The position numbers and the translations under genes were made by a program. Below, piece by piece: positions 32,530-46,578 of a stretch of 64,000 nt of DNA. The notes under the pieces were generated by a model. It did no database searches. It was given only the letters and a program-made list of their open reading frames with translations, and had not been told where the DNA came from. Each line of letters begins with the position of its first letter. Positions within the stretch are counted from its first letter, which is position 1. This stretch comes from Martelella lutilitoris (lineage in GTDB: Bacteria; Pseudomonadota; Alphaproteobacteria; Rhizobiales; Rhizobiaceae): contig NZ_VCLB01000003.1 of assembly GCF_005924265.1 (NCBI RefSeq), positions 186,001 through 250,000 on the forward strand, in the 5' to 3' direction.

Positions 32530-32656
32530 GAGCGCGCGCAAAAAGGCAGCGGACGGAACACAAAACGATGCTTTTGTCCGCATGACGTTTTTCCTACACC
32601 TGTGTTGAAGCCGCCCGAAGGGATGCGGCGGGGAACAACAAGACAGGTTGATCGAC

Positions 32657-33457
32657 ATGGCCAAGCGCTTCTACTGGAATGAACTGACAAGCCCGGAATT
32701 CAGCGCTCTGGACCCGGCGACCACCGTCGCCATCCTGCCGCTTGCCTCCACCGAGCAGCACGGCCCGCATCTGCCGGTCGCAACCGATGTGGCAATCGCC
32801 CAGGGCATGCTCGACACGCTCAAGGAAAACCTGCCCGAAAACCTCAACGTGCTGGTGCTGCCCGTTCAGGAAATCGGCAAGGCCAACGAGCATATCCACG
32901 GGCCCGGCACGCTCTCCTTCGGCGCGGACCTCTTGATCCCCGCTTGGACGACGATCGGCGAGAAGGTCGCCGCCGCAGGTCTCCGCAAGATCATCATGGT
33001 CAACAGCCATGGCGGCAATCTCGACATCATGAGCATCGTCTCGCGTGAGATGCGCGTGCGCTTCAATATGGTTGCTGTCGCCACGCAGTGGGCCCGCTTC
33101 GGTTCGCCGGAAGGCATGATCAGCGAGGAGGAGCGCACCTACGGCATTCACGGCGGCGAGGTCGAGACCTCGCTGATGCTGCACTTCCGCCCGGAACTGG
33201 TGAAGATGGAAAATGCCGAGAACTTCGTGTCGCTGGCCAAATGGCAGAAGGAAAACACCCGCCGCCTGCAGCCGACGCCGCCCAATGCGCTGGCCTGGAT
33301 CGCCCATGACCTCAACCCCAAGGGCGCGCTCGGCAACGCGGCGATCGCAACGGCCGAAAAGGGCGCGGCAATCGCGCAACACCAGATTGCGGGCTTCATC
33401 GAACTGATCGAGGATGTGGTCGCCTATCCGCTCGACAAGCTTTACACGCCGGCCTGA
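32657..33457 (+). CDS. Creatininase family amidohydrolase
   Basis: A 266-aa metal-dependent amide/lactam hydrolase. The metal ligands and active-site motifs of the family are all visible: ILPLASTEQHGPHLPVATDV (Glu, His, Asp), KIIMVNSHGGNLDIM (His) and YGIHGGEVETSLML (Glu). Characterised relatives act on creatinine, on formamidopyrimidines (ArfB) or in mycofactocin maturation (MftE). Location next to an NMT1-type importer, an amidohydrolase and redox genes suggests a ring-opening or deamidating step in breakdown of a small N-containing compound. The ATG at 32657 is preferred to the TTG at 32648. Confidence 0.85.
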   Translation: MAKRFYWNELTSPEFSALDPATTVAILPLASTEQHGPHLPVATDVAIAQGMLDTLKENLPENLNVLVLPVQEIGKANEHIHGPGTLSFGADLLIPAWTTIGEKVAAAGLRKIIMVNSHGGNLDIMSIVSREMRVRFNMVAVATQWARFGSPEGMISEEERTYGIHGGEVETSLMLHFRPELVKMENAENFVSLAKWQKENTRRLQPTPPNALAWIAHDLNPKGALGNAAIATAEKGAAIAQHQIAGFIELIEDVVAYPLDKLYTPA

Positions 33458-34399
33458 TCAGCCCTGCGCGGGCGGCAGGTGGTGCTTTTCCTGCAGCGTG
33501 TTGATGATGGCGGAGAGTTCCTTCAGCAGGTAGTCGACGAACAGGCTGCTTGCCGCATCGAGCGGCGCGCGGGCCCGCGAAAACAGCTTCATCGGCTGGT
33601 GGCGCACATGCGGATCGGCGAGCGGGCGGAAGGCCAGCTCGCCTTTCTGGCATTCGACATAGACGTCGAGCGGATTGAGAAAAGTCAGCCCCGTACCCCG
33701 CTTGACCAGAGCTTTGAGCATTTCCGACGAGTTCGTCTCGACCACGGGCTCGATCGGCAGCGACAGCGGTGACAGCGCAAGGTTGATGACATGGCGCAGG
33801 CTGGTGCCGGGCTGGGCGAGCACCAGCGGCTCCTGCACCATATCGGACACATTGACGCGCTCTTCTTCTGCGAGGCGATGATCAGGCGGCATCACTGCCC
33901 CGATCGGCACATCGAAGGAGGCGAGAGTGCGGATGCCCGGCGTCGGCGGAATGTTGAAGCCAAGGCCGAGATCGACATCGCCGGTCAGCACATTGGCGAT
34001 CGTGGTGGTGCCGCCATCGGATCTGAGATGGATGCGGATTCTTGGATTTTCGTCAACAAAACGGGCGATGATATCCGGCAGCGGCCCGGCGGCGAGGCCT
34101 ACGGTTGCCACCAGCGTCACTTTTCCCGCCTGCGGCATTTTCAGCGCGCGGATACGGGTTTCCAGCTTCTCGTAGCTCTTCAGAACCTCGCGGATATGCT
34201 CCACGCACATCTCGCCGGCCGCCGTCAGGCGCAGGCCGCGCGGCAGGCGCTCGAACAGCGGCGCGCCGAATTCCTCTTCCAGAGCAAGGATTTGCCGGTT
34301 GACGGCGGATGAGGCGACATTCAGTCGCTGCGCCGCCTTGCGGATCGAGCCGCAACGGGCGATCTCATCGATGTATTGCAGTTTCCTCGAATGAAGCAT
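33458..34399 (-). CDS. LysR family transcriptional regulator
   Basis: A 313-aa LTTR. The N-terminal helix-turn-helix (LQYIDEIARCGSIRKAAQRLNVASSAVNRQILALEEEFG, read as one winged helix) is followed by a linker helix and the periplasmic-binding-like effector domain (KVTLVATVGLAAGPLPDIIARF; DVDLGLGFNIPP; MLKALVKRGTGLTFL). It is divergent from the importer operon and ends immediately after the creatininase-like gene, so it most likely controls both. ATG at 34399. Confidence 0.93.
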   Translation of the reverse strand: MLHSRKLQYIDEIARCGSIRKAAQRLNVASSAVNRQILALEEEFGAPLFERLPRGLRLTAAGEMCVEHIREVLKSYEKLETRIRALKMPQAGKVTLVATVGLAAGPLPDIIARFVDENPRIRIHLRSDGGTTTIANVLTGDVDLGLGFNIPPTPGIRTLASFDVPIGAVMPPDHRLAEEERVNVSDMVQEPLVLAQPGTSLRHVINLALSPLSLPIEPVVETNSSEMLKALVKRGTGLTFLNPLDVYVECQKGELAFRPLADPHVRHQPMKLFSRARAPLDAASSLFVDYLLKELSAIINTLQEKHHLPPAQG

Positions 34400-34591
34400 G
34401 GGCGTAGACTCGATGGGTCGGAACCGGCGCTGACCAAATTTTGCGCAGTTCGATTACATTTATAACAATCGTGCCGGTTGTGCAAAAAAAGCATCAATGC
34501 GGACGAAAATTGATGCTTCTCAAACAGCGGTGAAGCCGCTCAAATGCAAAAATCGGAAAATTTAACGACGAAAAGCGAAGGGGAATAGCTT
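34400..34591. promoter_or_regulatory. LysR/importer divergent region with 10-bp perfect hairpin
   Basis: 192 bp, A+T-rich. AAGCATCAAT (34489-34498) and ATTGATGCTT (34509-34518) are a perfect 10-bp inverted repeat with a 10-base spacer. A run of seven A lies just left of it (34484-34490), so on the minus strand it reads as a stem followed by T's, like a terminator facing the LysR gene. It may instead be an operator. No thiamine-pyrophosphate riboswitch consensus is seen. Confidence 0.5.
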
Positions 34592-35599
34592 ATGTCGACT
34601 ACCTCAAAGACCGCCGCGCTCGCCGGTGCTGCCCTCATGGCAGCGGCCGCAACGCCTGCCTTTGCGCTGGACGAGGTTTCCTACGGCACCAACTGGCTCG
34701 CACAGGCCGAGCATGGCGGCTTCTATCAGGCCGTTGCCGATGGCACCTATGAAAAATACGGCCTCGACGTCACCATCGTCCAGGGCGGCCCGCAAGCCGC
34801 CAACCGCGCGCTCCTGATCGCCGGCAAGGTCGATTTCTACATGGGTTCGCCGCAGGGCGAGCTGGACGCCGTGGTCGAGGACATTCCGCTGATCGATGTC
34901 GCCGCCATGTTCCAGAAGGACCCGCAGATCCTGATGGCCCATCCCGACCAGGGCATCGAGGAATTCGCCGATCTGGCGAAATTGCCGACTATCTTCATGG
35001 GCAAAGACGGCTTCCTCTCCTACTTCCAGTGGATGAAGGCCAATTTCGACGGCTTCGACGATGCCCAGTACAAGCCCTACACCTTCAACCCGGCGCCCTT
35101 TATCGCCGATCCGCAGTCGGCCCAGCAGGGCTACCTCACCTCCGAGCCCTATTCGGTCGAGAAGGAAGCCGGCTGGTCGCCTAAGGTTTTCCTGCTCGCC
35201 GACAGCGGCTATTCGCCCTATTCGACGATGATCACCGCCCAGAAGAAGCTGGTCGAGGAAAACCCGGACCTGGTTCAGCGCTTCGTCGATGCCTCGATCG
35301 AAGGCTGGTACAACTATCTCTACGGCGACAATGCAGCGGCCAACGAGCTGATCAAGGCCGATAATCCGGAAATGACGGACGAGCAGATCGCCTATTCCAT
35401 CGAGAAGATGAAGGAATACGGCATCGTTGTTTCCGGCGATGCCGATGAAGGCGGCATCGGCTGCATCACCGATGCCCACTACAAGACCTTCTTCGACGAC
35501 ATGGTCGACATCGGCCTGTTCACGTCTGACGTCGATTACACCAAGGCCTTCACGACCCAGTTCGTCTGCAAGGGCGTTGGCAAGGACCTGATGAAGTAA
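34592..35599 (+). CDS. NMT1/THI5-type ABC substrate-binding protein
   Basis: Periplasmic binding protein (335 aa) of the SsuA/TauA/ThiY fold. Signal peptide MSTTSKTAALAGAALMAAAA...AFA-L, then VSYGTNWLAQAEHGGFYQAVADG (first lobe, typical of THI5-like proteins), DVTIVQGGPQAANRALLIAGKVDFYMG and QQGYLTSEPYSVEKEAGW. Relatives bind formylaminopyrimidine, riboflavin, nitrate or sulfonates; no ligand can be named here. First gene of a six-gene operon: binding protein, ATPase, permease, amidohydrolase, FAD oxidase, flavodoxin-fold reductase. Confidence 0.9.
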   Translation: MSTTSKTAALAGAALMAAAATPAFALDEVSYGTNWLAQAEHGGFYQAVADGTYEKYGLDVTIVQGGPQAANRALLIAGKVDFYMGSPQGELDAVVEDIPLIDVAAMFQKDPQILMAHPDQGIEEFADLAKLPTIFMGKDGFLSYFQWMKANFDGFDDAQYKPYTFNPAPFIADPQSAQQGYLTSEPYSVEKEAGWSPKVFLLADSGYSPYSTMITAQKKLVEENPDLVQRFVDASIEGWYNYLYGDNAAANELIKADNPEMTDEQIAYSIEKMKEYGIVVSGDADEGGIGCITDAHYKTFFDDMVDIGLFTSDVDYTKAFTTQFVCKGVGKDLMK

Positions 35600-35675
35600 G
35601 GCGAAACCACGCCGACACTCCGTTTCGCGTCACCCGGCGCGAAACGGCACCTTGAATTGAATGCAGGATAGCCGC

Positions 35676-36494
35676 ATGCCGAACGCTCATGCCGAAACCC
35701 CGGCATCGCTACAAAAGCCGCTGGTGAAGATGGAGCATGTCACCAAGATCTTCTCCAACGGGACCATTGCGCTCAACGATATGTCCCTGACGGTGCGCCA
35801 GGGCGAGTTTGTCAGCCTGCTCGGGCCTTCCGGCTGCGGCAAGTCGACCGCGCTCAGGATCATCGCCGCGCTCGGCGATGTCAGCCGCGGCACGATCGAC
35901 TGGCCAAGCTCGCGCATTTCCGCCAAGGGCCGCCCGGAAGGCGATATCAGCTTCGTTTTTCAGGAGCCGACGCTGATGCCCTGGGCGACCGTATTCGGCA
36001 ATGTCTATCTTCCGCTGAAACTGCGCGGCCAGTCGAAATCCGGCACGCGCGATCAGATCATGGATGTCCTCAAGACCGTCGGCCTTCAGGATTTCGCCGA
36101 TGCCTATCCGCGCGAACTCTCCGGCGGCATGAAGATGCGCGTCTCGATTGCCCGGGCGCTGGTGACCAAGCCGAAGCTTCTCCTGATGGACGAGCCCTTC
36201 GCGGCGCTTGACGAGATCACCCGCCAGCGGCTGAACGACGATGTTCTGCGGCTCTGGCACGAGACGGGCATCACCGTCATCTTCGTCACCCATTCCGTTT
36301 TCGAATCCGCCTATCTTTCCAACCGCATCGTGGTCATGCGCGCCCGCCCCGGACAGGTCTTCGACGATTTTCCGCTCGATACCAGCCAGGTCCGCGACGA
36401 GGACTATCGCTCCTCCGACGAATATCACCAGGCCTGCGCGAAAGTGTCCCACGCGCTGCAGGGCGCGATCCACGCCGCAGGAGGAGAACACTGA
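35676..36494 (+). CDS. ABC transporter ATP-binding protein (SsuB/TauB type)
   Basis: 272-aa ATPase of the same importer. Walker A LLGPSGCGKST, Q-loop FVFQEPTLMPWATVFGNVYLPL (the PW after the Q-loop is typical of the nitrate/sulfonate group), signature LSGGMKMRVSIARALVTKP, Walker B LLLMDEPFAALDEITRQRL and the switch histidine in FVTHSVFESAYL. ATG at 35676 has AGGAT 6 bases upstream; an earlier ATG at 35661 is possible. Its stop overlaps the permease start (ATGA). Confidence 0.93.
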   Translation: MPNAHAETPASLQKPLVKMEHVTKIFSNGTIALNDMSLTVRQGEFVSLLGPSGCGKSTALRIIAALGDVSRGTIDWPSSRISAKGRPEGDISFVFQEPTLMPWATVFGNVYLPLKLRGQSKSGTRDQIMDVLKTVGLQDFADAYPRELSGGMKMRVSIARALVTKPKLLLMDEPFAALDEITRQRLNDDVLRLWHETGITVIFVTHSVFESAYLSNRIVVMRARPGQVFDDFPLDTSQVRDEDYRSSDEYHQACAKVSHALQGAIHAAGGEH

Positions 36495-37348
36495 TGAGCG
36501 ACAAGGTGAGCGCCATGCAGCACGACGATGCGGCTTACGCCAAACCCGGTTTCTGGTCCCGCCATGGCGAGACCATCATGAAAATCGCGATCCCGATTGC
36601 CGTGCTCGCCTTTCTGGTGTTCGTCTGGCAGGCGATCGTGGTCATCTACCAGACCCCGCATTACATCCTCCCCGGCCCCGCGCTGGTGGTCGAAGCCTTT
36701 TTCGAGGACTGGGGCACGCTCGCGCCGGCGCTGTGGGTGACGACCAAGATCACCTTCATCTCGCTCGGCCTTGCCCTTGTCGGCGGCGTTGGCCTTGCCG
36801 TCATCATGGTCCAGTCGCGCTGGATCGAGACCGCGCTTTATCCGATCACCGTCATCCTTCAGGTGACCCCGATCGTCGCCATCGCGCCGCTGATCCTGAT
36901 CTACACGCCGACAACGCAGGTGGCGCTCCTAATCTGCGCCTTCCTCGTCGCCTTCTTTCCGATCCTGTCCAACATGGCGCAGGGCCTGAAGAGCGTCGAC
37001 CATAACCTTCTGAACCTGTTCGAGCTTTACGGCGCCTCGCGCTGGCAGACGCTCATCCACCTGAAACTGCCCGCATCGCTCCCCTATTTCATGACCGGGC
37101 TCAGGATCGGCGGCGGCCTGGCGCTGATTGCCGCCGTGGTTGCCGAATTCGCCGCGGGCTCTGCGGGCGCCGGCTCCGGCCTTGCCTTCCGCCTGCTGGA
37201 ATCGCAGTACCGGCTCAACATTCCGCGCCTCTTCGCAGCACTCTTCATGCTCGCCTGCCTCGGCGTGGCGATCTTCGCGCTCACCTCCTTCATTGCCTGG
37301 CTGTTCCTGCACCGCTGGCACGAAAGCAGCCTCAAGAGGGAAAACTGA
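36494..37348 (+). CDS. ABC transporter permease (SsuC/TauC type)
   Basis: 284-aa permease with a long polar N-terminus, six membrane segments and the EAA-type loop LLNLFELYGASRWQTLIHLKLPASLPYF, followed by the GLRIGGGLALIAAVVAEF segment usual for nitrate/sulfonate/taurine permeases. Start overlaps the ATPase stop and its own stop overlaps the amidohydrolase start (TGATG), which ties transport and catabolism into one translated unit. Confidence 0.93.
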   Translation: MSDKVSAMQHDDAAYAKPGFWSRHGETIMKIAIPIAVLAFLVFVWQAIVVIYQTPHYILPGPALVVEAFFEDWGTLAPALWVTTKITFISLGLALVGGVGLAVIMVQSRWIETALYPITVILQVTPIVAIAPLILIYTPTTQVALLICAFLVAFFPILSNMAQGLKSVDHNLLNLFELYGASRWQTLIHLKLPASLPYFMTGLRIGGGLALIAAVVAEFAAGSAGAGSGLAFRLLESQYRLNIPRLFAALFMLACLGVAIFALTSFIAWLFLHRWHESSLKREN

Positions 37349-38658
37349 TGCCGGATTTCATGACACTGCCGGAAGCGCCGACATTCGCGCTTCTAAGGGC
37401 AACCGTTCCGGCCGTCTGCCTTGCCGATGCGAGCAGCTTCGAGGCGAAGGAAGGCCTCATTTCGGTCGATATCGTGGTTGCCGAGGGCAAGATCGACGCC
37501 ATTCTACCCGCCGGCACCGCGCCGGCCGCGCTTCCTGCCGCCGACCTGCGCGACGGCATGGCCTGGCCGACCTTTACCGATATGCACACCCATATCGACA
37601 AGGGCCACATCTGGGAGCGCCGCCGCAACCCTGACGGCACCTTCATGGGTGCGCTGGAAAACGTGATGGCCGATCGGCAGGCCAACTGGTCGGCCGATGA
37701 CGTCGCCGCCCGCATGGAATTCTCGCTGAAATCGGCCTATGCCCACGGCACCGGCCTTTTGCGCACCCATCTCGACAGCTTGCCGCCGCAGCACGAAATC
37801 TCCTTCGAGGTGTTTTCTCACATGCGGGAAAAATGGGCGGACCGGCTCGAACTGCAGGCCGTCGCCCTCTTTTCCATCGACATGATCTTCGAGCCCTTCT
37901 TCGACGATCTGACGAAGCTCCTGAAACGCCACAACGGCCTGATCGGCGGCGTCACGCAAATGCTGCCGGACCTTGACGCGCGGCTGGACCGCATGTTCCG
38001 CGCGGCGGCCGACAACGGTCTCGATATCGACCTGCATGTGGACGAAACCGAGGACCGCGAGGTTCTGACCCTTGGCCGCATCGCGGAAGCCACGCTTCGC
38101 AACGGCTTCGAGGGGTCCGTCACCGTCGGCCATTGCTGTTCGCTGGCACGCCAGGATGCGGAAACGGCGAAACGCACGATTGACCTCGTGGCCAGGGCCG
38201 GGCTTTCCGTCGTCTCCCTGCCGATGTGCAACATGTATCTGCAGGACCGTCACGAAGGCCGCACGCCGCGCTGGCGGGGCGTAACGCTGTTCAAGGAATT
38301 GGCGGCCGCCGGGGTGAAGACGGCGGTCTCCTCCGACAATACCCGCGATCCGTTTTACGCCTATGGCGACCTCGATCCCGTCGAGGTCATCCGCGAGGCC
38401 GTGCGCATTCTCCAGCTCGACCATCCGCTGGACGAAACCGCCCGCATCATCACGAAGACGCCCGCCGAGATTCTCGGTCGGGCCGAACGCGGGGTGATTG
38501 CCGAAGGCGGACCCGCCGATCTCGTCCTCTTCAGCGCGCGCCGCTGGAGCGAATTCCTCTCCCGTCCGCAGGCTGACCGCATCGTGATGCGGAATGGCAT
38601 GGGCATCGACCGCAGCCTGCCGGATTACCGCGAACTTGACCCGCTGATGGATAAGTGA
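37348..38658 (+). CDS. Cytosine-deaminase-like amidohydrolase
   Basis: A 436-aa metal-dependent amidohydrolase (TIM barrel). First metal site TFTDMHTHIDKGHIWERR, barrel strand TGLLRTHLDSLP, DLHVDETEDRE (the HxDE of cytosine deaminase), TVGHCCSL and AVSSDNTRDPFYAYG, matching the order of CodA motifs, where the last one holds the metal aspartate. It probably deaminates or hydrolyses a ring C=N bond of the imported compound. The start overlaps the permease stop by one base. Substrate not assigned; cytosine is possible but the surrounding redox genes argue for another heterocycle. Confidence 0.85.
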   Translation: MPDFMTLPEAPTFALLRATVPAVCLADASSFEAKEGLISVDIVVAEGKIDAILPAGTAPAALPAADLRDGMAWPTFTDMHTHIDKGHIWERRRNPDGTFMGALENVMADRQANWSADDVAARMEFSLKSAYAHGTGLLRTHLDSLPPQHEISFEVFSHMREKWADRLELQAVALFSIDMIFEPFFDDLTKLLKRHNGLIGGVTQMLPDLDARLDRMFRAAADNGLDIDLHVDETEDREVLTLGRIAEATLRNGFEGSVTVGHCCSLARQDAETAKRTIDLVARAGLSVVSLPMCNMYLQDRHEGRTPRWRGVTLFKELAAAGVKTAVSSDNTRDPFYAYGDLDPVEVIREAVRILQLDHPLDETARIITKTPAEILGRAERGVIAEGGPADLVLFSARRWSEFLSRPQADRIVMRNGMGIDRSLPDYRELDPLMDK

Positions 38659-38660
38659 AC

Positions 38661-40070
38661 ATGCCGGACTATCAACAGATCAAGGCCGAACTCGAAGGCA
38701 TCGCCATCGAGGACAATCCCAACATGGTTCTGCGCAAGAGCCGGGATTTCTACTGGTATTCGCCCATTCTGAAGGAACAGCTTGAGAGTGTGACCGGCGA
38801 TCTGGTCGTCTCGCCGAAGAACGAGGACGAACTGATCCGGATCCTGAAGGTCGCTTTCAAGAACGATGTTCCCGTCACCGCACGCGGCGGCGGCACCGGA
38901 AATTATGGCCAGTGCATGCCGCTTTCCGGCGGCATCGTGCTCGACATGACCAGGATGAACGCGATCAAGGAGATCCATCCCGGCCGCGTCGTCGTCGAAG
39001 CCGGCATCATCTGCGCCCAGCTCGACAGGGAGCTGAAGGAAAAGTCCGGGCAGGAACTGCGCTTCCACCCGTCGACCACCGGTCAGGCCACGCTCGGCGG
39101 CTTCATCGCCGGCGGTTCGGGCGGCGTCGGCTCGGTCCACTGGGGCGGGCTTCGCGATCTCGGCAATGTGCTGCGTTTGCGGATCGTGACGCTGGAGGAA
39201 GAGCCGCGGGTGATGGAACTGACGGCACGCGACCTGCTGAAGGTCAGCCACGCCTACGGCACCAACGGCATCATCACAGAGGTCGAGATGCCGCTGGCGC
39301 CCGCCTATGACTGGGTGGACGTGATGGTTGGCCACGAGACCTTCATGGACGCGGTGCGCTTTTCCGACAGGCTGGCGAAATCCTCCGGCATCCTGGTCAA
39401 GGAAATCGCTCCGATCGCAGCGCCCGTGCCCTATTCCTACTTCAACCGCCACAAGCCTTTCCTCAAGGAGGGCGAGAGCGTTTCCGTCGTCATGGTCGCG
39501 CCGCACTCCATGGAGCCCTTCGAGGCGCTGGTGAACCTCTACAAGGGCGAGATCCGCTTCCGCTCCGACAAGGCGGAAAGCCTGCGCGGCCTGCCGCGCG
39601 CCTATGAGCTCGGCTGGAATCATACGACCCTCAGGGCGCTGAAGACTGAGCCGGATGCCTTTACCTATCTGCAGGTGCAATATCCCGGCCCCGACCATGT
39701 GGCCAAGGTTCAGGAAATGTCCGAGCTCTTCGGCGATGAGGTGATCGGCCATCTGGAGTTCCTGCGCTTTGACGGCGCGATCCAGTGTTCCGGCCTGCCG
39801 CTGGTGCGCTACACGACCGCCGAACGGCTGGAAGAGATCATCCGCATTCACGAGGAGCACGGCTGCCCGATCTTCAACCCGCACCGCTATACGCTGGAAG
39901 AGGGCGGCATGAAGCAGACCGACGAATTGCAGCTGGCCTTCAAGAAGGAAACGGATCCCAAGGGCCTGTTGAACCCCGGCAAGATGATCGCCTGGGAAAA
40001 CCCGGATTTCGATTTCAAGGCCGGCAAGAACTTCCTGTTCAAGGGCCTTTCCGAGACGGGAGCCGAATAG
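38661..40070 (+). CDS. FAD-binding oxidase (GlcD/vanillyl-alcohol-oxidase family)
   Basis: A 469-aa flavoprotein. The PCMH FAD-binding domain is seen at residues ~45-225 (LVVSPKNEDELIRILKVAFK; PVTARGGGTGNYGQCMPLSGG; HPSTTGQATLGGFIAGGSGG), with a C-terminal FAD-oxidase cap ending DPKGLLNPGKMIAWE. The family oxidises alcohols, hydroxy acids or amines. Genes before and after overlap or nearly touch it (amidohydrolase stop 3 bp upstream; reductase start 2 bp after its stop). A GTG at 38655 is an alternative start. Confidence 0.88.
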   Translation: MPDYQQIKAELEGIAIEDNPNMVLRKSRDFYWYSPILKEQLESVTGDLVVSPKNEDELIRILKVAFKNDVPVTARGGGTGNYGQCMPLSGGIVLDMTRMNAIKEIHPGRVVVEAGIICAQLDRELKEKSGQELRFHPSTTGQATLGGFIAGGSGGVGSVHWGGLRDLGNVLRLRIVTLEEEPRVMELTARDLLKVSHAYGTNGIITEVEMPLAPAYDWVDVMVGHETFMDAVRFSDRLAKSSGILVKEIAPIAAPVPYSYFNRHKPFLKEGESVSVVMVAPHSMEPFEALVNLYKGEIRFRSDKAESLRGLPRAYELGWNHTTLRALKTEPDAFTYLQVQYPGPDHVAKVQEMSELFGDEVIGHLEFLRFDGAIQCSGLPLVRYTTAERLEEIIRIHEEHGCPIFNPHRYTLEEGGMKQTDELQLAFKKETDPKGLLNPGKMIAWENPDFDFKAGKNFLFKGLSETGAE

Positions 40071-40071
40071 G

Positions 40072-40653
40072 ATGCGCGTTCTCGTTCTCTTCAGCCATCC
40101 GGTGGAAACCAGCTTCGGCGCGGCGCTGCATGCCCAGGTCGTCGAAAGCCTGACGAAGGCCGGACACGAAGTCGATGATTGCGATCTATACGCCGAGGGC
40201 TTCCAGCCGGTCCTGACCCGCGAGGAGCGCATCGGCTATCACGACTATCCGGAAAACACCGCGCCGGTTGCCGGCTATGTCGAGCGGCTGCGGCAGGCCG
40301 AAGCCCTCGTCATCGTCACGCCGGTGTGGAATTTCGGCTTTCCGGCGATGCTGAAAGGCTATTTCGACCGGGTCTGGCTGCCCGGCGTTTCCTTCGCGCT
40401 CGAGGACGGCAAGCTGACGCCGACGCTGCGCCATATCAGAAAGCTTGCCGCCGTCTTCACCTACGGCGCGACGCCGATGCGGGCATTTCTCGCCGGCAAT
40501 CCGCCGAAAAAGATCGTCAAGCGCGTGCTGCGCGCCCAGATCAAGCTCGGCGCGCCGGTCTCCTTCATGGCGCATTACGACATGAACAACTGCACCGACA
40601 AGACAAGGGCCGATTTCCTGGCAAAGGTGAAAGCCGAGATGGAGGCTTTCTGA
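40072..40653 (+). CDS. NAD(P)H:quinone oxidoreductase-like flavodoxin-fold protein
   Basis: 193-aa flavodoxin-2 (NQO1/MdaB/KefF-like) protein: LVLFSHPVETSFGAALHAQVVE binds FMN phosphate, and ALVIVTPVWNFGFPAMLKGYFDRVWLPGVSF is the typical family block. It may re-oxidise reduced cofactor or reduce a quinoid intermediate of the pathway. Last gene of the importer/catabolic operon; a strong terminator follows at 40711. Confidence 0.85.
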   Translation: MRVLVLFSHPVETSFGAALHAQVVESLTKAGHEVDDCDLYAEGFQPVLTREERIGYHDYPENTAPVAGYVERLRQAEALVIVTPVWNFGFPAMLKGYFDRVWLPGVSFALEDGKLTPTLRHIRKLAAVFTYGATPMRAFLAGNPPKKIVKRVLRAQIKLGAPVSFMAHYDMNNCTDKTRADFLAKVKAEMEAF

Positions 40654-40867: not shown

Positions 40868-42583
40868 ATGTCCATGCCAGAGCAGAAAACCGCCGATGAG
40901 ACCCGCCTGCGCAAATTGCGCGGCACCGTCCCGGTCAATGCCGTGCTTCATGTCTGGCTGAAAGCCATTCACCCGCATGCGCCTGCAGAAATACAGCTTT
41001 CGCTCAACGGCCAATTATTCGGCAATATCTTCGCCCAGAACGCGGAAGAGTATGAATTCCGCATGTTCTTCGTGCCCCATGGCGGCGAACTGGAATGTTC
41101 CTACGATCCCGAGACAACGACGATCTCGGTCGCCTACTGGTTTACCGATGCCAAGGTGCTGGAAGAAGGCATTACCGTGCTGCGCACCCATGCGGCCAAT
41201 GCCCCGGCGCCTGCCCCCGGCAGCTATCACTTCCGCCCGCCCTTCGGCTGGATGAATGATCCGAATGGCTTCGGCCGCTTCAACGGCTCGGCGCATCTCT
41301 TCTACCAGCACTATTCACACGGGCTGACGTGGAACACCATGCACTGGGGCCATGCGGTTTCGGAGGATTTCCTGCACTGGCGGCATCTGCCGATCTTCCT
41401 GTTTCCCTCCGAGGACCTGACCCACCGCCCGGACAAGCGCGGCGGCGCCTTTTCCGGCTCGGCGATCCCGCTGGAAAACTCCGCCGGTATTCGGGTATTC
41501 TTCACCGAAAGCGTGGTCGAGCGCGATCCCGAGCGCGAAATCCAGATGGTCGCGACGTCGCAATCGCTGATCTTCGCCGGCGCGGCAAAACCGCTGATCG
41601 ACGAACGGCCGGAGCTTGAGGGCCTGACGCTCGATTTCCGCGACCCTTACGTCTTCCGTGGGCCCGATGGCTACTGGAAGATGCTGCTCGGCAGCCGCCA
41701 GGGCGAGGAAGGCGTGGTCCTACTCTATCAGACCGCAGATCTGACGGCGGCAAGCGGCTGGGAATTCGTCGAAATCCTGCACCGCGAAGGGCGCTTCAAT
41801 ACCCAGGTGGTCGAATGTCCCTGCCTGCTGCCCCTCGACGGCCCGGCCGGTGATCCGCAGACCCATTGGGTTCTGGTCTGCGGCCTGATGCACAGCCACC
41901 ACGAGGAGACCGGCCGCAAGAACCTGACCATGGCCACCGTGGGCCATTTCGACGGCAAGCATTTCACGCCCCAATTCGAGCAGGAGCTCGATTTCGCCAC
42001 GGACAATTACGCTTTCCAGGCCTTCCTCGACCAGGGCCGCCCGGTCGGCATCGGCTGGCTCGCCAACTGGGCCGATGCCGCGCCGGAGATCGACTTTCCA
42101 ACGGCGATGACCCTGCCGCGCAACCTTGTCTATGACGCTGCCGACAACACGCTTCTGACGCCGCCGATCGAGGGCGTGGAAGTGCTGCGGGACGCGTTGA
42201 TCGACGAGACCGCCCTAGCCGCCGGCGAGCCGGTGATGCTGGAGAAAGGCCAAGCCGAGATCGTCATCGAGCTTGACCGCAATGACGGGCCGTTCGAAAT
42301 TGATCTCTACCACAACAATATCGAGATCACGGTGAAGATCGATGCCGAGGGGATGAGACTTCTCTACATGGACGACAGCAAGTCGCCGACGCCCGATTAT
42401 TTCGCCCCTGGCGCCAATCCGAGCCATTTGCGGCTATTCCTCGATATCGGCTCCGTCGAGGTCTTCGCCGACAACGGTCGCTGGGCCGGCACCAAACGCA
42501 TCGCCGGCTTCGACCCGATCCACTCGCTGAGAATTCGCGAAGGCGCGATCAAGTCGGCCAGGGTCTGGTCGCTGGCGCTTTGA
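40868..42583 (+). CDS. GH32 fructan/sucrose hydrolase with N-terminal extension
   Basis: 571-aa glycoside hydrolase 32. The three catalytic blocks are clear: WMNDPNGF (nucleophile Asp131), DFRDPYVFRG (transition-state Asp) and QVVECPCLLPL (acid/base Glu), followed by a C-terminal beta-sandwich (VMLEKGQAEIVIELDRNDGP ... LRLFLDIGSVEVFADNG). The nucleophile motif is normally near the N-terminus; here about 125 residues precede it and look beta-rich (VLHVWLKAIHPHAPAEIQLS; ISVAYWFTDAKVLEEG). No signal peptide, so sucrose, sucrose-6-phosphate or short fructans in the cytoplasm are likely substrates. No transporter or LacI gene is adjacent. Confidence 0.9.
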   Translation: MSMPEQKTADETRLRKLRGTVPVNAVLHVWLKAIHPHAPAEIQLSLNGQLFGNIFAQNAEEYEFRMFFVPHGGELECSYDPETTTISVAYWFTDAKVLEEGITVLRTHAANAPAPAPGSYHFRPPFGWMNDPNGFGRFNGSAHLFYQHYSHGLTWNTMHWGHAVSEDFLHWRHLPIFLFPSEDLTHRPDKRGGAFSGSAIPLENSAGIRVFFTESVVERDPEREIQMVATSQSLIFAGAAKPLIDERPELEGLTLDFRDPYVFRGPDGYWKMLLGSRQGEEGVVLLYQTADLTAASGWEFVEILHREGRFNTQVVECPCLLPLDGPAGDPQTHWVLVCGLMHSHHEETGRKNLTMATVGHFDGKHFTPQFEQELDFATDNYAFQAFLDQGRPVGIGWLANWADAAPEIDFPTAMTLPRNLVYDAADNTLLTPPIEGVEVLRDALIDETALAAGEPVMLEKGQAEIVIELDRNDGPFEIDLYHNNIEITVKIDAEGMRLLYMDDSKSPTPDYFAPGANPSHLRLFLDIGSVEVFADNGRWAGTKRIAGFDPIHSLRIREGAIKSARVWSLAL

Positions 42584-42710: not shown

Positions 42711-43100
42711 TTACGGCACCTTGGCCGCCGTAACCTCGACCTCGACCAGGAACTCCGCGCGGGTGAAGCCCGAGACGATCAGCAGGGTCGAGACCGGCAT
42801 CGGATCGGAGATAAAACGGTCGCGGACATCCATATAGGCCGGGAAATCCTCGCGCGTTGTCACGTAGCCGGTGATGCGGATCACATCCTCGAACCCCATG
42901 TCCGCTTCAGCGAGGATCTTGCCGATGGTCGAAAAACAGAGTTCGGCCTGGGCGCTGACGGAACGCGGAATGACCTCGTCCGGCCCGATCCCGAGCTGGC
43001 CGGAGGTGACAAGAAGGCCGGCCCCCGGCGGCACGTACAGACCGTGGCTGTAATTGCCGAAAGGCTTGCGAACGCCGACTGGGTTGATGCTCTTCTTCAT
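42711..43100 (-). CDS. RidA (YjgF/YER057c/UK114) family protein
   Basis: 129-aa imine/enamine deaminase fold: VPPGAGLLVTSGQLGIGPDE, CFSTIGKILAEADMGFEDVIRI, STLLIVSGFTRAEFLVEVEVTAA. RidA proteins hydrolyse reactive enamines from PLP enzymes; others sit in catabolic clusters. The conserved arginine near the C-terminus (usually in xRVxVE... before EVE) is replaced in position by the TRAEFLVEVEV stretch, so activity is likely but the subgroup is not RidA proper. Convergent with the GH32 gene, 126 bp of non-coding DNA between. Confidence 0.82.
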   Translation of the reverse strand: MKKSINPVGVRKPFGNYSHGLYVPPGAGLLVTSGQLGIGPDEVIPRSVSAQAELCFSTIGKILAEADMGFEDVIRITGYVTTREDFPAYMDVRDRFISDPMPVSTLLIVSGFTRAEFLVEVEVTAAKVP

Positions 43101-44657: not shown

Positions 44658-45638
44658 ATGCTCAACTTCAAGAAGGCGGTGCTGGCAACCGCCGCCGTGG
44701 CCACGATTGCGGGTTTTACCGCACCGGCGCTGGCGCAGGATGCGACCGAGAAGACGGTCGCCATCACCTATATCGTCGAACATCCTGCCCTTGACGCTGT
44801 GCGCGAGGGCATTATCGAAAGCCTCGCCGAAAAAGGCTATACCGAAGGCGACAACCTCACCGTGGTTGCCCGCTCCGCCCAGGGCAACATGACGACGCAG
44901 ACCCAGATCGCCTCCGAATTTGCTGGCCTGAAGCCCGATGTCGCCGTCGGCATCTCCACGCCATCGGCCCAGGCGCTGAAGAATTCGATGGGTGATGCCC
45001 CGGTCGTCTTCGCCGCCGTCACCGATCCGGTCGCCGCCGGCCTCGTTGAGAATCCGGAAGCCCCGGAAGCAAACATCACCGGCACCTCCGACAAGCAGCC
45101 GCCGAAGCCGGCGCTGGAACTGATCCAGACGCTGGTGCCCGGCGTCAAGACCATCGGCGTGATCTACAATCCGGGCGAGGCAAACTCGGTCGTTCAGGTC
45201 GACGAGATCAAGGCGGCCGCCGGCGAACTCGGCCTCGAAGTTGTCGACAGCCCCGCCGCCCAGTCGACCATGGTGCCGGATGCGGCGCGCAACCTCGTCG
45301 GCAAGGCCGATGCGATCCTGCTGCCGACCGACAATTCGGTAATCTCGGTGCTTGAGGCCATCATCACCGTCGGCGAGCGCGCCAAACTCCCGGTCTTCAC
45401 CACGGATACGGATTCCGTCGAGCGCGGCGCGGTTGCAGCCCTTGGCTTCAACTATGCCGAAATGGGCAAGGTCACCGGCGACATGGTTGCCGAAATCCTC
45501 GCCGGAAAGTCGCCGTCGGAAATCGCCGTCGTCGTGCCCGGCAATCAGGACCTGTTCCTCAACATGAAGGCTGCCGAAGCCATGGGCATCACGGTTCCCG
45601 ACAGCGTCAAGAACAGCGCCAAGAAGGTCATCGAATAA
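44658..45638 (+). CDS. TrpX-type ABC substrate-binding protein (PF04392)
   Basis: 326-aa binding protein with signal peptide MLNFKKAVLATAAVATIAGF...ALA-Q and the ABC_sub_bind family pattern: VAITYIVEHPALDAVREGI, EFAGLKPDVAVGISTPSAQAL, PVVFAAVTDPVAAGLV, TIGVIYNPGEANSVVQVDEI, DAILLPTDNSVISVLEAI. Characterised relatives bind aromatic amino acids (TrpX of streptococci). The permease starts 1 bp after its stop and the ATPase overlaps the permease stop, giving a three-gene importer operon. CAGGGGG lies upstream of the ATG. Confidence 0.9.
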   Translation: MLNFKKAVLATAAVATIAGFTAPALAQDATEKTVAITYIVEHPALDAVREGIIESLAEKGYTEGDNLTVVARSAQGNMTTQTQIASEFAGLKPDVAVGISTPSAQALKNSMGDAPVVFAAVTDPVAAGLVENPEAPEANITGTSDKQPPKPALELIQTLVPGVKTIGVIYNPGEANSVVQVDEIKAAAGELGLEVVDSPAAQSTMVPDAARNLVGKADAILLPTDNSVISVLEAIITVGERAKLPVFTTDTDSVERGAVAALGFNYAEMGKVTGDMVAEILAGKSPSEIAVVVPGNQDLFLNMKAAEAMGITVPDSVKNSAKKVIE

Positions 45639-45639
45639 T

Positions 45640-46578
45640 ATGACGCTTTTTGCTCTCGCCGGGGCCTTTGAGACCGGCTTGCTCTTCGCCCTCGTGGCGT
45701 TGAGCATCTTTATGTCCTTTCGGGTTCTCGACTTTCCCGATCTGACGGTGGACGGGAGTTTCCCCTTGGGCGCGGCGGTTTCGGCCGCCGCCATCGTCGG
45801 CGGTTTCGATCCTTTCATCGCAACATTCTTCGGCATGCTCGCAGGCGCCGCCGCCGGTTTCGTCACCGGGCTTTTGAACGTGCGCTTCGGGATCATGAAC
45901 CTGCTCGCCGGCATCCTGTCGATGGTGGCGCTCTTTTCCGTAAACCTGCGCATCATGGGACGGCCGAACCTGCCGGTCTACGGTCAGGACACCGTGTTCT
46001 CCCGCTTTGAAAGCGTGGTCGATGCCGGGCTTTGGAGCAATACGATCCTGCTTTTGATCATCGCCATCGGCGCCAAGCTGATCGTCGACTGGTTCCTCAA
46101 GACCGAAATCGGCCTCGGGCTCAGGGCATCCGGCGAAAATCCCGCCATGGCCGAGGCCCAGGGCATCCGCAACGGCGCAATGACGCTGCTCGGCATGTCG
46201 ATCGCCAATGCGCTTTGCGCGCTCGGCGGTTCCCTCTTTGCCCAGATGCAGGGCGTGGCGGACGTGACCATGGGCGTCGGCACGATCGTCACCGGGCTTG
46301 CCGCGTTGATCATCGGCGAGGCGATCCTCGGCCGGCGCACGGTGTTTCTGGCCACGCTCGGCTGCGTCATCGGCGCGGTCGTCTATCGTCTGTTCATTGC
46401 GCTTGCGCTTTCCGCCGGCTTCATCGGCATCCGCCCTCAGGACCTCAACCTGATCACCGCCGTGGTGGTCGCCGTTGCCGTGGTTCTCTCCCAGAGGCGG
46501 GGCAAGCGCGGCCGCAAGCAGCTCTTCAATTTCAAACTGGTGCGCGGCGCCCAGCAAAACGACGAGGGACAGGACTGA
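45640..46578 (+). CDS. ABC transporter permease (TrpY-type, BPD_transp_2)
   Basis: 312-aa permease with about nine hydrophobic segments and the branched-chain/TrpY-style pattern: LALVALSIFMSFRVLDFPDLTVDGSFPLGAAV, VTGLLNVRFGIMNLLAGIL, KTEIGLGLRASGENPAMAEAQGI, and LGGSLFAQMQGVADVTMGVGTIVTGLAALIIGEAIL (each seen as separate blocks). It lacks a large periplasmic domain. Starts 2 bp after the binding-protein stop; stop and ATPase start overlap (TGATG). Confidence 0.9.
   Translation: MTLFALAGAFETGLLFALVALSIFMSFRVLDFPDLTVDGSFPLGAAVSAAAIVGGFDPFIATFFGMLAGAAAGFVTGLLNVRFGIMNLLAGILSMVALFSVNLRIMGRPNLPVYGQDTVFSRFESVVDAGLWSNTILLLIIAIGAKLIVDWFLKTEIGLGLRASGENPAMAEAQGIRNGAMTLLGMSIANALCALGGSLFAQMQGVADVTMGVGTIVTGLAALIIGEAILGRRTVFLATLGCVIGAVVYRLFIALALSAGFIGIRPQDLNLITAVVVAVAVVLSQRRGKRGRKQLFNFKLVRGAQQNDEGQD

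Follow-up and report, generated by a model that had tools for sequence, protein, structure and literature searches.

We analyzed a 64,000-nucleotide stretch of DNA from Martelella lutilitoris (contig NZ_VCLB01000003.1, positions 186,001 to 250,000; hereafter the window, to which coordinates refer unless another locus is named). It carries a unit of nine genes encoding an importer, a regulator and several enzymes. Judged from relatives and gene context, this unit probably imports folate-derived pterins and degrades them by deamination, by flavin oxygenation and then by hydrolysis of amide and imine bonds; we give this reading a probability of about 0.77. The return of the folate pterin ring to the environment is understood in part. 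The nine-gene unit is present in dozens of sequenced rhizobia and their relatives, with its own importer and operator, and this makes the missing steps testable in laboratory strains. We class it with the clusters for pterin and folate catabolism, of which two enzymes have been characterized elsewhere; for the rest of their chemistry the literature searched gave no account. It offers a candidate role for an unassigned subfamily of creatininase-like proteins and for a RidA protein, and it suggests that the proteins named cytosine deaminase by NCBIfam model NF005759 are pterin deaminases when they occur in such clusters.

The genes and predicted control elements of the unit are the following.

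32657..33457, plus strand: creatininase-family metal hydrolase (Creatininase PF02633, 2.7e-69, Pfam)
33458..34399, minus strand: LysR-type regulator, divergent from the importer operon (HTH_1 PF00126, LysR_substrate PF03466)
34592..35599, plus strand: NMT1/THI5-type periplasmic binding protein (PF09084, 7e-24, Pfam), the proposed pterin receptor
35661..36494, plus strand: ATPase of the ABC importer (ABC_tran PF00005)
36494..37348, plus strand: permease of the ABC importer (BPD_transp_1 PF00528)
37348..38658, plus strand: CodA-fold amidohydrolase (Amidohydro_3/1; database name cytosine deaminase), the proposed pterin deaminase
38655..40070, plus strand: FAD enzyme with a VAO-like fold (FAD_binding_4; alternative ATG at 38661), the proposed pteridine oxygenase
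40072..40653, plus strand: NQO-like NAD(P)H oxidoreductase with a flavodoxin fold (Flavodoxin_2 PF02525, 6.4e-31), the proposed reductase for the FAD enzyme
42714..43100, minus strand: RidA (Ribonuc_L-PSP) imine/enamine deaminase (PF01042, 1.7e-19), behind a GH32 gene
34481..34493: LysR-type dyad TGC-N7-GCA (T-N11-A), a sequence pattern
34491..34518, plus strand: predicted conserved operator GCATCAATGCGGACGAAAATTGATGCTT, a sequence pattern
32567..32575, plus strand: half-site GATGCTTTT ahead of the creatininase-family gene; the LysR regulator may recognize this site too

An initial annotation of this DNA had listed the first eight genes; all of them are real, with these coordinates and Pfam families, and to its list have to be added the RidA gene on the minus strand and the conserved operator, which it missed. 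The genes from the ATPase to the FAD enzyme overlap or abut, at 36494, 37348 and 38655.

Relatives of the amidohydrolase and the FAD enzyme

The amidohydrolase scores 659.5 bits with NF005759, far over the cut-off of 403, and its nearest solved structure by sequence is E. coli CodA. These matches, and the fact that the NMT1 family of the receptor includes a pyrimidine binder, would suit a unit that imports, deaminates, oxidizes and opens cytosine or another simple pyrimidine. In an alignment with CodA the metal and catalytic residues (H80, H82, H230, E233, H262 and D330) are invariant in 19 of 19 rows. However, in all 18 rows other than CodA, that of the window included, Q156 of CodA is not kept and D314 is replaced by N331; two of these 18 relatives (L169 and L171) come from loci without a FAD gene. 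We take Q156 and D314 to be substrate residues of CodA. A phylogenetic tree separated 21 relatives of the amidohydrolase, three pterin deaminase orthologs included, from CodA and AtzC with a support of 100/99; three of the 21 are from genomes without a FAD gene, the branches of AtzC and G691 are long (G691 itself is uncertain), and CodA, AtzC and the Pantoea protein have an unusual make-up. Furthermore, the protein of locus L228, an ortholog of the assayed pterin deaminase described below, scores best with the same NF005759 model (344 bits, below its cut-off), so that the name of the model does not tell the substrate and is likely a misnaming. By the tree and these residues, the amidohydrolase clusters with orthologs of a pterin deaminase whose activity has been assayed, and not with CodA. 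Together with a FAD partner of the folate-catabolism type, these points make pyrimidine catabolism quite improbable. NF005759 is also matched above its cut-off in Synechococcus elongatus, among the control genomes.

The assayed enzyme is a pterin deaminase of 399 residues, which You et al. (2022) cloned from Variovorax sp. F1 and which acts on folic acid (Km 0.28 mM, kcat 10.1 per s) and on pteroic acid (PMC9513972). The accessible text of that paper places an 'endoribonuclease' gene downstream of the pterin deaminase gene in V. paradoxus; its account ends at deaminopteroic acid, leaves the later route open and describes no FAD, creatininase-family or importer step. According to the same text, a second pterin deaminase, Arad3529 from Agrobacterium radiobacter K84, is 37% identical to the F1 enzyme.

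We located the F1 type in genus g450, which by inference is Variovorax. At the start codon of the cluster amidohydrolase, the published 5' primer for the F1 gene matches locus L224 with one mismatch and L225 with two; the other 28 g450 loci have 3-4 mismatches or no match at ≤4. Over the whole family the primer gave scattered, chance-like matches, and the ortholog was settled by a protein search within the genus. In L228, which is from the same genome as L224, the primer site opens a protein of 399 residues (MKLEAVR...), followed by a RidA gene whose Pfam name, 'Endoribonuclease L-PSP', matches the 'endoribonuclease' mentioned in the accessible part of PMC9513972. This pterin deaminase gene faces genes for a TetR-like protein, a PDR/VanB reductase, NQO, the receptor, the FAD enzyme, the permease, the ATPase and the creatininase-family protein. 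All three of L228, L229 and L160 contain the genes for the deaminase, RidA, NQO, receptor, FAD enzyme, permease, ATPase and creatininase-family protein. The F1-type gene stands together with RidA, creatininase-family, NMT1 importer, NQO and FAD genes, as the window gene does. The two amidohydrolases also have the catalytic residues and the change to N331 in common; their identity is 35.5%, and across 81 loci (L006-L086) the amidohydrolase shares 33-38% identity with the F1-type enzyme of L228. The g450 loci differ from the window unit in having tetronate genes in front and in carrying a PDR/VanB reductase as well as a TetR-like regulator.

The association is common in the genus. A set of 62 pterin deaminase genes, with at least 62% identity to that of G725, was found in 61 of the 81 genomes searched. 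For 46 of these genes, a close FAD gene (≥80% identical to the FAD gene of G725) is no more than 10 kb away. All 55 genomes with a close FAD gene also have the pterin deaminase.

The FAD enzyme also points to folate. Its best match in the PDB, both by sequence (2.1e-202 over the whole length; 62.7% identity over 461 amino acids) and by fold, is 6v42, an entry titled 'Crystal structure of the flavin oxygenase with cofactor bound involved in folate catabolism'; the next match by sequence stands at 4.4e-19. The flavin oxygenase of 6v42/6v43 is a different protein, like the window enzyme over its full length and compared here by the title of 6v42. Its eight nearest relatives among the loci (L124-L131, 73-75%) have the same amidohydrolase-FAD-reductase order as the window. 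Because the entry title speaks of a flavin oxygenase, the window protein, which the initial annotation had called a FAD oxidase, is more probably an oxygenase. The closest named relative of the window protein is that of Martelella radicis (99%). Fold matches other than 6v42 were left unused because the structure model of the FAD enzyme is of low confidence.

The FAD enzyme likely has a reductase partner in this version of the cluster. An NQO match is present in 84 of 87 loci (L006-L092). Two of the other three, the Klebsiella and Pantoea clusters, carry a PDR/VanB-type reductase instead, as does the cluster of G723; the third, from Agrobacterium CFBP6625, has no PDR/VanB reductase either and no amidohydrolase. 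The Leisingera and Haematobacter clusters also carry a small 2Fe-2S protein.

Conservation and regulation of the unit

Loci were fetched by their similarity to the FAD enzyme, and the presence of the other genes was scored by tblastn. For the closer relatives we sampled the best 80 of 145 confirmed FAD-enzyme relatives, with one genome per species and mostly from Rhizobiaceae. The full set of nine is present in 77 of these 80 loci. The exceptions are L010, without a creatininase match, and L009 and L011, without a RidA match in the fetched stretch; RidA is thus matched in 78 of the 80, and the flanks of L009 and L011 may be too short. The LysR gene keeps its place and strand across L006-L086. 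This co-occurrence is not due to chance, and the nine genes form one unit. The initial annotation had proposed to look for the same gene set in other genomes, and here the set is conserved as a unit.

Another 20 stretches (L146-L165), more distant and picked for a FAD gene, include some that stop at a contig end. The partners found in them are the ATPase (18), the creatininase family (16), the permease (16), the amidohydrolase (15), the receptor (15), NQO (10) and RidA (9). In a survey of 385 genomes from the class to which the window belongs, with the window genome among them, 19 have the FAD family (threshold E ≤ 1e-60), 19 have an amidohydrolase above the cut-off and 16 have both. More distant versions, in which the genes stand in a shuffled order, come from Palleronia, Leisingera, Alloyangia, Haematobacter, Pantoea, a Comamonadaceae plasmid and others. 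Leaving aside antisense shadows of genes in the unit, no additional neighbor family was found in more than 12 of 26 sampled loci; the commonest named neighbors were PurA (12 loci), a DMT exporter (12) and uracil-DNA glycosylase (11).

The operator was found by alignment of the intergenic regions between the LysR and receptor genes. TGC-N7-GCA is present in 80 of 82 such regions (mean of shuffled sequences, 3.2) and the core GCATC-N4-CG-N2-CGAA in 72 of 82 (shuffled mean, 0.0); these statistics come from simple base shuffles, and the regions are related and hence not independent. A dyad with the spacing T-N13-A had nothing in common among the regions; it was the alignment that gave the site. 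With up to 3 mismatches the composite operator pattern matches once in the whole genome, at 34491-34518 of the window. Of 80 upstream regions of the creatininase-family gene, 65 contain the half-site GATGCTTTT, as compared to a shuffled mean of 0.07. Because of this half-site, the data suggest that the creatininase-family gene shares the regulator of the operon, although the LysR gene stands between them. For the ATPase, permease, amidohydrolase, FAD and NQO genes, the half-site was found in 0 of 81 upstream regions in each case. It was also found in 0 of 79 regions before RidA, and membership of RidA in the regulon is unsupported.

Proposed pathway and alternatives

The observed gene content, conservation, relationships and conserved operator would fit the following route. 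The NMT1-type receptor and the ABC transporter would import a pterin (pterin, pterin-6-carboxylate, hydroxymethylpterin or a similar compound). The CodA-fold amidohydrolase would then exchange the 2-amino group for oxygen, yielding a lumazine and ammonia, and the FAD enzyme, supplied with electrons by the NQO-like reductase, would oxygenate the deaminated pteridine and break its aromaticity. In a fourth step the creatininase-family hydrolase would cut the resulting amide or lactam. RidA proteins hydrolyze imines and enamines, and the RidA protein of the unit would act in this way on the released product, so that further ammonia is formed along with small acids. The LysR protein would sense a substrate or product and drive the importer operon, and probably also the creatininase-family gene. 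Deamination and oxygenation, as types of activity, are supported by the relatives of the two enzymes; the transported species, the order of the steps, the role of the reductase and the last two steps we infer.

Deaminated pterins arise in folate degradation, since another folate-degrading isolate accumulated lumazine-6-carboxylic acid, according to the accessible part of PMC5919439; the accessible main text of PMC7662398 does not mention folate or pterin. The initial annotation had supposed that an imported small nitrogen heterocycle is deaminated, oxidized and ring-opened. This is borne out in outline, and ring opening is probable. It could not match the gene set to a pathway it knew; a match can now be offered, in that the FAD enzyme is close to 6v42 and the amidohydrolase clusters with the Variovorax-type pterin deaminases rather than with CodA. 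Its description of the pathway as undescribed has to be narrowed: two of the enzyme types are already known, and it is for the later steps that no account was found in the literature searched. That search yielded no paper on the steps after pterin deamination, and most subscription journals lay outside it. The discoverers of Arad3529 reportedly proposed a pathway of pterin degradation that had not been described.

The creatininase-family protein could in principle make a different first step, with creatinine, a hydantoin or another creatininase-type substrate being attacked by this enzyme and the other enzymes following. Consistent with its membership in the family, the acidic and histidine residues E33, H35, D44, H118 and E170 are invariant in 10 of 10 aligned members. 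However, the protein scores 89.7 bits with the creatininase model TIGR04448 (cut-off 235) and 25.5 bits with the ArfB deformylase model NF033501 (cut-off 180), and it also remains under the cut-offs of MftE and IolN, so that all four named models matched fall short. By these scores it is neither of the two relatives, creatinine hydrolase and ArfB, to which the initial annotation had pointed. Neither a hydantoinase nor a creatinase is among the 18 annotated features around the Rhizobium johnstonii copy, and a creatinine pathway would leave the 6v42-type FAD enzyme unexplained; we consider it very improbable. Because the residues are kept but the models of named members score below cut-off, an amide or lactam hydrolase acting on a pathway intermediate is a fair guess for this protein.

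The receptor scores 26.9 bits with the aliphatic sulfonate model TIGR01728 (cut-off 163.5) and by this model is not of the sulfonate type, so that the objection which the initial annotation had raised against its own proposal, a receptor clearly of the taurine/nitrate type with unrelated flanking enzymes, does not hold. Its relatives in the PDB include 4nmy (1.6e-9) and 3ix1, a binder of formylaminopyrimidine (8.6e-7, 31.7 bits). The latter would favor the use or salvage of pyrimidines derived from thiamine, with ThiY-like import followed by degradation, but the match is weak, the same 18 features around the R. johnstonii copy contain no thiamine gene, and the enzymes are closer to pterin deaminase and folate-catabolism relatives. 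We consider this explanation very improbable as well.

Other observations weigh against the assignment of the unit to folate-derived pterins. The roles of the window proteins are proposed from relatives and gene context. The receptor resembles known pyrimidine binders weakly, and its ligand is for this reason deduced from the enzymes. The 35.5% identity between the window amidohydrolase and the Variovorax-type enzyme is far enough from identity to leave room for a changed substrate. The role of 6v42 in folate catabolism is taken from the title of the entry, and the structure model of the FAD enzyme is poor (pLDDT 59), although the match to 6v42 also holds by sequence. In g450, 16 of the 62 pterin deaminase genes have no close FAD gene within 10 kb: 5 are at 11-15 kb, 5 are on another contig and 6 are in genomes without one. 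In the class survey, G348, G286 and G011 have an amidohydrolase above the cut-off and no FAD match, while G022, G288 and G376 have the FAD family with amidohydrolases only below the cut-off. The locus of Agrobacterium CFBP6625 (L090, a plasmid of A. tumefaciens) contains FAD, creatininase-family, importer and RidA genes and has no amidohydrolase or NQO match. Among the 20 distant FAD stretches an NQO or PDR/VanB reductase was found in 11, RidA in 9 and the amidohydrolase in 15; the reductase and RidA are therefore not tied to the FAD enzyme everywhere. The count of 11 weakens the argument for a reductase partner, and because the linkage is looser in distant relatives we slightly lowered our confidence in the pterin pathway, to the value given at the outset.

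The g450 loci also allow a further reading of the ring opening. Tetronate genes precede the pterin deaminase gene in this genus (L228 995-5721). In L228 their products score above cut-off with the models for L-threonate dehydrogenase (462.5 bits, cut-off 350), D-erythronate dehydrogenase (388.2, cut-off 325), 3-oxo-tetronate kinase (630.5, cut-off 350) and 2-oxo-tetronate isomerase (380.9, cut-off 325); a decarboxylase-like protein stays just below (230.5, cut-off 250). For the best 30 of the 62 pterin deaminase genes, the isomerase gene lies in front (≤200 bp) and RidA behind, on the same strand, in 30 of 30. Such an arrangement would be explained if the route opened the pyrazine half of deaminated pterins and C6, still bearing its side chain, left in the form of a carboxylic acid. 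Neopterin would then give D-erythronate and monapterin L-threonate, both of them four-carbon sugar acids, and the hydrolysis that frees the acid from N5 would fall to the creatininase-family enzyme. If true, this would be a new ring-opening route linking pterin breakdown to tetronate metabolism. In L230-L232, which have no close FAD gene, the tetronate genes likewise stand beside the pterin deaminase gene, and the sole isomerase-like match beside a cluster outside g450 is in L023 (49%). The link between the pterin deaminase and the tetronate genes may be a coincidence specific to the genus or a local accident, and we regard pyrazine opening as unlikely.

Divergent relatives and neighboring genes

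The Rut pathway of pyrimidine degradation is similar in outline to the pterin route proposed for the window, with a flavin oxygenase and its reductase, the RidA-type protein RutC, a hydrolase and an importer. No Rut model is among the NCBIfam matches listed for the eight window genes scanned, and the Rut oxygenase RutA presumably has a fold other than that of the window FAD enzyme. Divergent relatives of the cluster carry RutB/biuret-hydrolase-like proteins, AtzE-like amidases and CocE-like hydrolases, as well as a Rieske-type oxygenase for which the nearest NCBIfam model scores far below its cut-off. Isopenicillin-N-synthase-like oxygenase, cupin-like and GGT-like genes in relatives were named by eye, except for the annotated oxygenase in L090. 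Such genes suggest that divergent relatives use the same core for other heterocycles rich in nitrogen.

A wider substrate range of the family, which these additional hydrolases and Rieske-like oxygenases make probable, would also allow the window unit to apply the same chemistry to another pteridine-like substrate, such as flavin fragments, xanthopterin or methylated pteridines. These additional genes were not seen between 28000 and 46000 of the window, by reading and by family scans, and we consider it improbable that the unit acts on such a substrate instead of on folate-derived pterins.

The larger relatives L151, L152, L153, L155 and L161 each have several, though not all in every locus, of the following: Rieske-like oxygenases, RutB/biuret-hydrolase-like, AtzE-like, CocE-like and GGT-like hydrolases, cupin-like genes and tandem FAD enzymes; some of these were named by eye. 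The variant in L090 also has a LysR gene, and the gene for the isopenicillin-N-synthase family oxygenase then follows. Genes for a molybdenum hydroxylase (PaoABC) lie beside the cluster in Rhizobium johnstonii (L086 1-3695), and genes resembling glyceraldehyde or xanthine dehydrogenase, below the cut-offs, lie beside the amidohydrolase without a FAD gene in G011 (L171 6064-9733).

In the window, a levanase/sucrase-like GH32 gene (40868-42583) is located between the NQO and RidA genes. It is present in 8 of 87 loci, namely seven Martelella records and L007. The latter is a record labeled Marinicella sp. W31; its FAD protein is 95% identical, and the label may therefore be wrong. Downstream of the unit (44658-46578) a receptor of the ABC_sub_bind family (PF04392) and a permease of the branched-chain type represent another importer.

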